A stretch of DNA of 33,357 nucleotides, taken from Lewinella sp. (GTDB lineage Bacteria > Bacteroidota > Bacteroidia > Chitinophagales > Saprospiraceae). The notes under the pieces are model-generated. The model was given only the letters and a program-made list of their open reading frames with translations. It was not told the DNA's origin and ran no database searches. The stretch lies in the NCBI GenBank assembly GCA_026421165.1, contig JAPKCQ010000008.1, positions 1-33,357 of the forward strand. Direction: 5' to 3'. The position numbers and the translations under genes are program-made. The stretch's first letter is position 1. Each line of letters begins with the position of its first letter. Of this stretch, positions 32,458-33,357 are shown one piece after another.

Positions 32458-32919
32458 TTAAGTCGACGGAACAAACAGCATCGACCGGTGGGGAATACCG
32501 TCTTCGTCGTAAACATCACCGATGCCTTTGAAGCCAAGGCTCGTGTAGTAGTCGCCCAAGTGGGCCTGGGCACCAATCTTGACGGTTTGCTCGCCATAGT
32601 GCTCAAAAAGTACGCGCAGGGATTCTCGCATCAGTGGCCGGCCAAGTCCTTTACCCCGGGCGAAAGATGCTGTGATGACCCTGCCGATGCTGGCGAACTC
32701 AGGGTAAGAGGTGCCTTTTGGCACAATACGGGTGTAGGCGGCGAGGCGGCCGTCTTCCGTCATTCCCAGTAGGTGGACGGCTTGCTGGTCCTTGTCGTCG
32801 AGGTCCTGGTAAACGCAGTCTTGTTCCACTACGAATACTTCGGCGCGTAGGCGCAGTAGTTGGTATAGTTGGTCGGTGGTTAGCTGTGCGTAGGGGATGG
32901 CGTGGTAGCTTAGTTCCAT
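32458..32919 (-). CDS. GNAT family N-acetyltransferase, ElaA-like
   Basis: MELSYHAIPYAQLTTDQLYQLLRLRAEVFVVEQDCVYQDLDDKDQQAVHLLG...IGRVITASFARGKGLGRPLMRESLRVLFEHYG; start at ATG 32919 (or 32928) rather than the track start 33075. Confidence 0.88.
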   Translation of the reverse strand: MELSYHAIPYAQLTTDQLYQLLRLRAEVFVVEQDCVYQDLDDKDQQAVHLLGMTEDGRLAAYTRIVPKGTSYPEFASIGRVITASFARGKGLGRPLMRESLRVLFEHYGEQTVKIGAQAHLGDYYTSLGFKGIGDVYDEDGIPHRSMLFVPST

Positions 32920-32936
32920 AGTGTGCATTATTTTTT

Positions 32937-32957
32937 GGCGCGGGCGCGGGTGCAAAA
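32937..32957 (-). repeat. Dispersed motif copy (immediately upstream of elaA-like gene)
   Basis: Minus strand TTTTGCACCCGCGCCCGCGCC. Confidence 0.5.
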
Positions 32958-33196
32958 TGATCTTTTGAGCGTCCGGCTTCTTTCTTGCGATTGCTCTGGG
33001 AGGCTGGCGCTGCAATATCTCACAAAAAACATGTTTCTTATCGGTACGTTTAATGCTCAGCGAATAATTACGCATCTCTCCCCCCGAGCAGTATCAAATA
33101 GTACCTGAGATTGAGTCGCGTTTATCGGTTGCGGATGCGCTGGAGCGGGAGATTGGGGTGGCTTTTTTTGGGGGAGTTGGTTTGATTGCGGGGGGT

Positions 33197-33354
33197 TAGG
33201 GTCTCAAAGCGGCCCCTCTTTTCCGCTGGCGTAGCGCGGAGAGGAGGGGTTCTTTGAGCGCCTGGGTGTTTAGTGTTTAGTTGGCCCGGGCGCTCAAAGA
33301 ACCTCCATCCTTCGCTCGCTACGCGCGAAAGATGGAGGCCGCTTTGAGACCCTA
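33197..33354. repeat. 158-bp compound inverted repeat made of two inverted hairpin-bearing halves
   Basis: 18-bp perfect outer arms TAGGGTCTCAAAGCGGCC (33197-33214) / GGCCGCTTTGAGACCCTA (33337-33354); 15-bp perfect inner arms GGTTCTTTGAGCGCC (33248-33262) / GGCGCTCAAAGAACC (33289-33303); each half carries its own hairpin. Confidence 0.9.
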
Positions 33355-33357
33355 GGG

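Follow-up and report, generated by a model that had tools for sequence, protein, structure and literature searches.

What is the compound inverted repeat at the end of this Lewinella contig, and what could account for it? The window, that is the whole stretch of DNA analysed, comprises all 33,357 bases of contig C372 in a draft genome of 4.5 Mb and 485 contigs, and the repeat (33197-33354, 158 bp) stops 3 bases short of its right end. We regard it, with good confidence, as a REPIN/BIME-like doublet, in which two inverted REP-like hairpins lie beside a gene for a REP-associated tyrosine transposase (RAYT) on the adjoining contig.

An Inverted Pair of Hairpins at a Contig End

The repeat had been described in a first-pass annotation, and its coordinates and sequence are confirmed, as are the 18-nt outer arms, which are perfect inverted copies, and the arms next inside them (GGTTCTTTGAGCGCC), which also match. 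The head-to-head unit of ~66 nt proposed there is better drawn as two inverted units of ~67 nt each with a spacer between them. Both were recognised in the sequence and by the covariance model R1, unit 1 at 33199-33265 on the plus strand (61.5 bits) and unit 2 at 33286-33352 on the minus strand (70.6 bits). Unit 1 consists of the foot GGGT, the helix strand CTCAAAG, an extra C, a variable stem and the apex GCGTAGC, followed by the partner strand CTTTGAG, another extra C and the foot GCCTGG. Unit 2 has the inverse orientation, another inner stem and the apex GCGTAGC. The interiors of the two halves are unlike each other in sequence, and each half retains its pairing, with computed folds of -44.2 and -35.2 kcal/mol, as had been claimed. 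The entire repeat also folds as a single long hairpin (-112.9 kcal/mol), so both suggested folds, two side-by-side hairpins or one long one, are available. A central 7-nt tandem had been pointed out as well; TGTTTAG indeed occurs twice in the spacer (33266-33285), but it is not conserved among the other unit pairs read. Likewise, the shared core GCGTAGCG is present, but as one case of a family-wide apex of the form C-GNA-G or C-GNNA-G.

Two further features lie beyond what the annotation recorded. The repeat runs up against the contig end, and the window closes with 37 nt (33321-33357) identical to nucleotides 1-37 of contig C379, which continues with another copy of the window-end sequence and so contains a tandem duplication with a period of ~46 nt. 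An ORF of 214 amino acids (L005:85-729), the RAYT gene, starts 48 nt beyond the 37-nt stretch common to both contigs, and radA comes after it. The left neighbour of the repeat is a GNAT acetyltransferase gene on the minus strand (32458-32919, the core of ORF 32458-33075; Pfam PF13673, 9e-12), which has orthologues in 19 of the 21 Lewinella genomes. In three relatives this gene lies near radA: the two adjoin directly in G006, have one other gene between them in G014, and are separated by a different Y1-type transposase gene in G002. Because of the 37-nt end identity and the GNAT-radA synteny in relatives, C372 and C379 probably adjoin, the support for this junction being an overlap that falls in repeated sequence, plus the synteny. 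Given this adjacency, the RAYT gene with its hairpins was very probably inserted into the GNAT-radA interval. The interval has apparently been taken twice, by RAYT here and by the Y1-like gene in G002; the latter (L243) bears an NHVH motif and is flanked by GCCGACTTCAGTCGGC palindromes.

A Family of Units in Lewinella

A first search pattern (GGGTCTY..RGCG + CTY..RGCGCC), which fixed the constant letters and left the interior and, largely, the helix middle free, detected 16 units, which are distributed over 8 of the 21 Lewinella genomes. A second pattern (GGACCTNNNAGCG...CTNNNAGCGTCC), in which the helix triplet nnn was wholly free, added more than 110 units in 11 genomes. Because the reversed controls of both patterns gave 0, the family is far beyond chance. 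The covariance model R1 found units in 15 of the 21 genomes, with copy numbers per genome that are lower bounds, since no more than 150 candidates were scored in each: at least 18 in the window genome (E<=0.01), at least 77 in G002, at least 85 in G031, at least 95 in G003 and at least 123 in G013. Matches to the family amount to roughly 500 altogether. Further copies, the first thing that the annotation had proposed to look for, thus exist. In a 120-genome sample of the order, R1 matched only in G000 and G002; the sample lists three Lewinella genomes, to which these two belong, and no unit was found in its non-Lewinella genomes. The units are mostly extragenic, 31% of them lying inside ORFs vs 86% for random positions.

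The units share a common anatomy. At the foot, GGGT pairs with GCCC, or GGAC with GTCC. Inside the foot is a 7-bp helix, in which CT-nnn-AG pairs with CT-n'n'n'-AG, and an extra C follows AG on both strands; above this helix, the upper stem may have any sequence and a very variable length. In 21 long units the nearly invariant columns are GG, CT, AGCG, apex (C)GNAG, CT, AGCG and YCC, part of which was fixed by the search patterns and is hence not independent evidence. Integron attC sites were considered and dropped, as the constant ends, in our reading, misfit GTTRRRY.

Some copies are arranged in tandem. Half-units are repeated at L005:1-83 and L066:1250-1587, with periods of about 46 nt and 32 nt, and look as if replication had slipped at hairpins. 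A tandem array of units with a period of ~168 bp occupies G013 C14:4091847-4092905 (L263), in a genome without a RAYT of the clade described below.

Association with One Clade of RAYT Genes

A RAYT (Y1_Tnp) gene was another feature that the annotation had suggested looking for, and the ORF on C379 bears the marks of one. It scores 25 bits against Pfam Y1_Tnp (PF01797), above the 23-bit cut-off, and 19.9 bits against NCBIfam NF047646 (REP_Tyr_transpos), below the curated cut-off of 80 bits. All 44 sequences compared share H72 and H74 (the HUH histidines) and Y143 (the catalytic tyrosine); the consensus motifs are NHFH and YIHxNP, and the protein of the window genome has DHFH and YHHRNP. A sequence search of the PDB with this protein gave nothing meaningful, whereas a fold search with the predicted structure (pLDDT 92) did match, best with the E. 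coli TnpAREP-REP complex (4er8) and next with the TnpA proteins of IS608 and ISDra2 (2vjv, 2xo6).

A profile search delimited a tight RAYT clade of ten genes in seven genomes (E below 1e-84), the best E among the other Y1 genes of the genus being 1e-26. With the covariance model, units adjoin all ten clade loci, counting the locus of the window genome itself via the split contig and L118 weakly (E 0.02); the 20 other Y1_Tnp loci of Lewinella have no units beside them. The seeds of the model include units of the G031 C6 and G031 C8 loci and of the window, and none from L102, L103, L104, L105, L106, L117 and L118. The units found by pattern show the same contrast, with 20 in 34 kb around clade RAYT genes vs 0 in 65 kb around other Y1_Tnp genes. 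They often stand directly before or after the RAYT coding sequence, and every RAYT is accompanied by a unit subfamily of its own, for example CTCAAAG in the window genome, CTCGGAG at one and CTTGGAG at the other RAYT of G031, and CTCGAAG-GT at G002 C33.

At the level of genomes, all seven with a clade RAYT have units, and all six without units lack a clade RAYT. Eight genomes have units and no clade RAYT, so that unit presence does not track the presence of the enzyme; two of the eight (G003 and G009) are incomplete. RAYT presence was rejected as a full explanation of copy number, because one of the eight is G013 with its high count of units. Outside Lewinella, a distant RAYT in Dokdonia sinensis (L136) is flanked on both sides by compound inverted repeats, CCTCGCAGGTC...GACCTGCGAGG nested within CAGACCTACAAGG...CCTTGTAGGTCTG, which recall the doublet architecture.

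Doublets Nested in MITEs

Some doublets are enclosed by larger elements. Those of G009, G002 and the window genome (C103) lie within elements with the terminal repeat CAGGGCAATCGCAAG, whose target duplications fit best at 10 bp and are perfect in two G009 copies; no convincing target duplication was seen for the G002 copy L262. Loci of this family are window 32961-32998, L259, L260, L261, L336, L385 and L391, and the terminal repeat occurs in 13 of the 21 Lewinella genomes (1 mismatch allowed). At 32961-32998 the window holds a half remnant, in which CTTTTGAGCGTCCGG (a unit 3' end) precedes CTTGCGATTGCTCTG; the latter represents the family's right terminal repeat, which is matched at C372:32984-32998 with 1 mismatch. 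In a second MITE family (G031: L330-L333, L337 and L338; terminal repeat CAYACTACTGGACATTTTC), near-identical doublets form the interior of 184-bp elements whose terminal repeat starts with CACACTACTGGAC; 9-bp target duplications are present in five of six, four of them perfect and one with a mismatch. Moreover, copies of one doublet occupy unrelated sites in G009, G002 and G031, there inside MITEs. Because doublets sit inside MITEs with target duplications, part of their spread is hitch-hiking: several dispersed doublets were spread by another transposase. The cognate transposase of the CAGGGCAATCGCAAG family was not found, and on contig C13 of the window genome, where two MITE-like ends are 1.45 kb apart, no transposase was recognised among the ORFs.

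These nested copies are the main support for an alternative in which the doublets are MITE interiors moved by a DDE transposase via the outer terminal repeats, the adjacency to RAYT being secondary and the hairpins being passengers or aids to DDE transposition. We consider it unlikely, including what it says of the hairpins. No such terminal repeats are seen at the window pair or at the units flanking RAYT genes. The units occur in two unrelated terminal-repeat families, where the hairpin anatomy is the constant part, and a CAGGGCAATCGCAAG element encloses either a doublet of RAYT-type hairpins or hairpins of an unrelated kind (GGCCGAG/CTCGGCGG type); unrelated hairpins are also found inside the CAGGGCAATCGC elements of G018 and G005. 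Finally, movement as MITE interiors leaves unexplained why units adjoin every clade locus and none of the other Y1_Tnp loci.

Probable Selection on a Folded Single Strand

The annotation had claimed selection on structure, and the test of covariation across copies that it called for gave a strong signal. All three nnn pairs form in 101 of 118 units, nearly all of which had been found with the triplet left free, whereas permuting the triplets (2000 permutations) gave a mean of 45 fully paired units and a maximum of 58, and permuting within genomes a mean of 63 and a maximum of 75. Nine different kinds of fully Watson-Crick triplets occur among the 118 units. In alignment A2, 99.5% of the cells pair, and covariation is 0.507 vs 0.222 when shuffled and at most 0.20 with the partner slid; the signal collapses when the partner column slides by one. 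Both sides have changed in 58 cells, where 15 were expected. For the GGAC-type units in A2, the terminal GG was confirmed in six and L211 has GA, which leaves the counted pairs unaffected. Copies therefore exist and their pairing is kept, where the annotation had allowed for a lack of copies or for changes that break pairing.

The apex is similarly constrained. Among 107 distinct interiors, 87 have a GNA or GNNA loop near the centre closed by C-G or T-A (GNA in 73, counted when closed by at least two Watson-Crick pairs, and GNNA in 14 more), compared with a mean of 14 and a maximum of 23 in shuffled interiors. The corresponding motifs of the reverse strand are rare (TNC in 2 and TNNC in 2), and the features of the unit therefore sit on one strand. 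According to PMC4686876, which cites Hirao and Yoshizawa, GNA and GNNA loops combined with G-C pairs give DNA mini-hairpins of extraordinary stability, whatever the base N. Of the 14 GNNA loops, 12 have C or T as their third base, unlike RNA GNRA loops. Because the one-strand apex fits DNA mini-hairpins and the GNNA bases misfit RNA GNRA, we infer that selection acts on single-stranded DNA in folded form.

The same loops bear on whether the repeat is a structured RNA or a transcriptional element, such as a bidirectional terminator, an mRNA stabiliser or an attenuator of the RAYT gene. The strong hairpin potential, the mostly extragenic positions and the frequent flanking of RAYT coding sequences would suit such a function, and REPs elsewhere have side roles of this kind (PMC3733652, PMC6006769). 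We nevertheless hold it to be quite improbable, as the loop bases point to DNA, no T-run is seen 3' of the hairpin in the window sequence, and an Rfam scan of 32800-33357 gave no match near the gathering score, its matches (microRNA precursors and SRP) being at chance level and far below the gathering scores. Mobile DNA is also a better fit for dispersed inverted pairs. Of the readings that the annotation had left side by side, REP/BIME-like element, structured RNA or hairpin recognised by a transposase, the mobile hairpin is thus supported and the RNA has become less likely. Chance or an assembly artefact at the contig end, for example a fold-back chimera, is rejected as having a negligible probability: the repeat does lie at the very end of its contig and all three Y1_Tnp genes of this assembly are near contig ends, but the halves differ inside, which is unexpected of a fold-back, and the same architecture recurs within long contigs of independent genomes, e.g. 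the 4.17-Mb contig of G013.

A Model for Recognition and Spread

The unit family is real, under selection, strand-specific and tied to one RAYT clade. The RAYT presumably recognises and moves the units. When the DNA is single-stranded, e.g. as lagging-strand template, each unit would fold into a hairpin, which the RAYT would bind via features independent of the stem sequence, namely the GNA/GNNA apex and the 7-bp CT-nnn-AG helix, both strands of which are followed by an extra C. Cutting and rejoining close to the foot could then copy or move units or doublets. Since nothing but pairing would matter, compensatory changes would let the upper stem and the middle three base pairs of the helix drift without constraint on their sequence. 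Many other pairs would additionally spread as passengers within DDE-type MITEs.

More tentatively, it is quite possible that this RAYT reads shape and not sequence, in the form of a helix with extra Cs and an ultra-stable GNA/GNNA cap, and, as part of the same proposal, that the 7-bp helix is pseudo-symmetric and the guide tetranucleotide has been dispensed with. If this is true, the stem of a unit can drift while recognition by a shape-reading RAYT is kept. The family, with its roughly 500 model matches, amounts to a natural experiment, in which evolution has varied almost every stem position, and the constant parts (CT...AGC on both strands, the GNA apex and the foot) directly predict the protein contacts. 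The REP recognition experiments that we found in the literature deal with three systems from Proteobacteria, each of which has a GTAG foot (PMC8266576). The units also argue, at the level of sequence, for selection on single-stranded DNA in its folded form, and hairpin doublets are seen carried inside DDE-type MITEs.

Comparison with Known Systems

The closest parallels are the REP/BIME/REPIN and RAYT systems of E. coli, Pseudomonas and Stenotrophomonas (PMC2817692, PMC3116915, PMC3733652, PMC8266576). As in these, the Lewinella units are short imperfect palindromes, dispersed and mostly extragenic, often in inverted pairs, and their recognisable features are on one strand. Two inverted units occur as one unit of spread, both in the window pair and in G009, G002 and G031. 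The gene on C379 encodes a Y1_Tnp domain with the HUH motif and the catalytic tyrosine, and cognate units of a specific subfamily flank the Y1 HUH transposase genes of its clade. Unpaired bases within the stem are shared with E. coli REPs, and preservation of the palindrome by compensatory change with those of Stenotrophomonas, from which it is already known (PMC2817692). Canonical REPs have a GTAG or GTGG foot (PMC2817692, PMC3733652), whereas the Lewinella foot is (A)GGRYCT on the 5' side and most often CCGG on the 3' side, with no GTAG/GTGG (or CGTC). Because this guide tetranucleotide is missing, we call the units REP-like and not canonical REPs. They also differ in having a constant 7-bp helix, each strand of which is followed by an extra C, an upper stem that varies freely in sequence and widely in length, and a GNA/GNNA apex; in the open-licence literature we found no description of a two-extra-C helix, of a GNA/GNNA apex rule or of a freely drifting stem.

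Two other kinds of element share part of this picture. The ends of IS200/IS605 elements (IS608, ISDra2) are likewise hairpins of single-stranded DNA that have extrahelical bases and are recognised by a Y1 HUH transposase, as would be the case here, and the fold matches 2vjv and 2xo6 belong to them; the Lewinella system differs in having no IS ends and no multi-copy identical transposase gene, and its units vastly outnumber the gene. As in MITEs, many doublets lie inside terminal inverted repeats with 9-10-bp target duplications, whereas the window pair and the units adjacent to RAYT genes have neither.

Among the TnpAY1 proteins, the Lewinella RAYT appears, from its sequence, to resemble subclass 2.6 (Bertels group 5), which is mostly found in Bacteroidetes and has the motifs NH[LIV]H and YIH[QN]NP and flanking 'atypical secondary structures' that are weaker and have no GT[AG]G foot (PMC6006769). 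Its more distant relatives, in other Bacteroidota and Chloroflexi, have simpler flanking palindromes, e.g. ACCTGTCAGGTTTTGAAAACCTGACAGGT. The likeness to subclass 2.6 extends to the phylum, the tyrosine motif near YIHxNP, NHFH/DHFH as the HuH motif, the lack of a GT[AG]G guide, and hairpins that flank the gene and have copies elsewhere; in contrast to the structures of that subclass, which are called weaker (PMC6006769), the Lewinella hairpins are strong.
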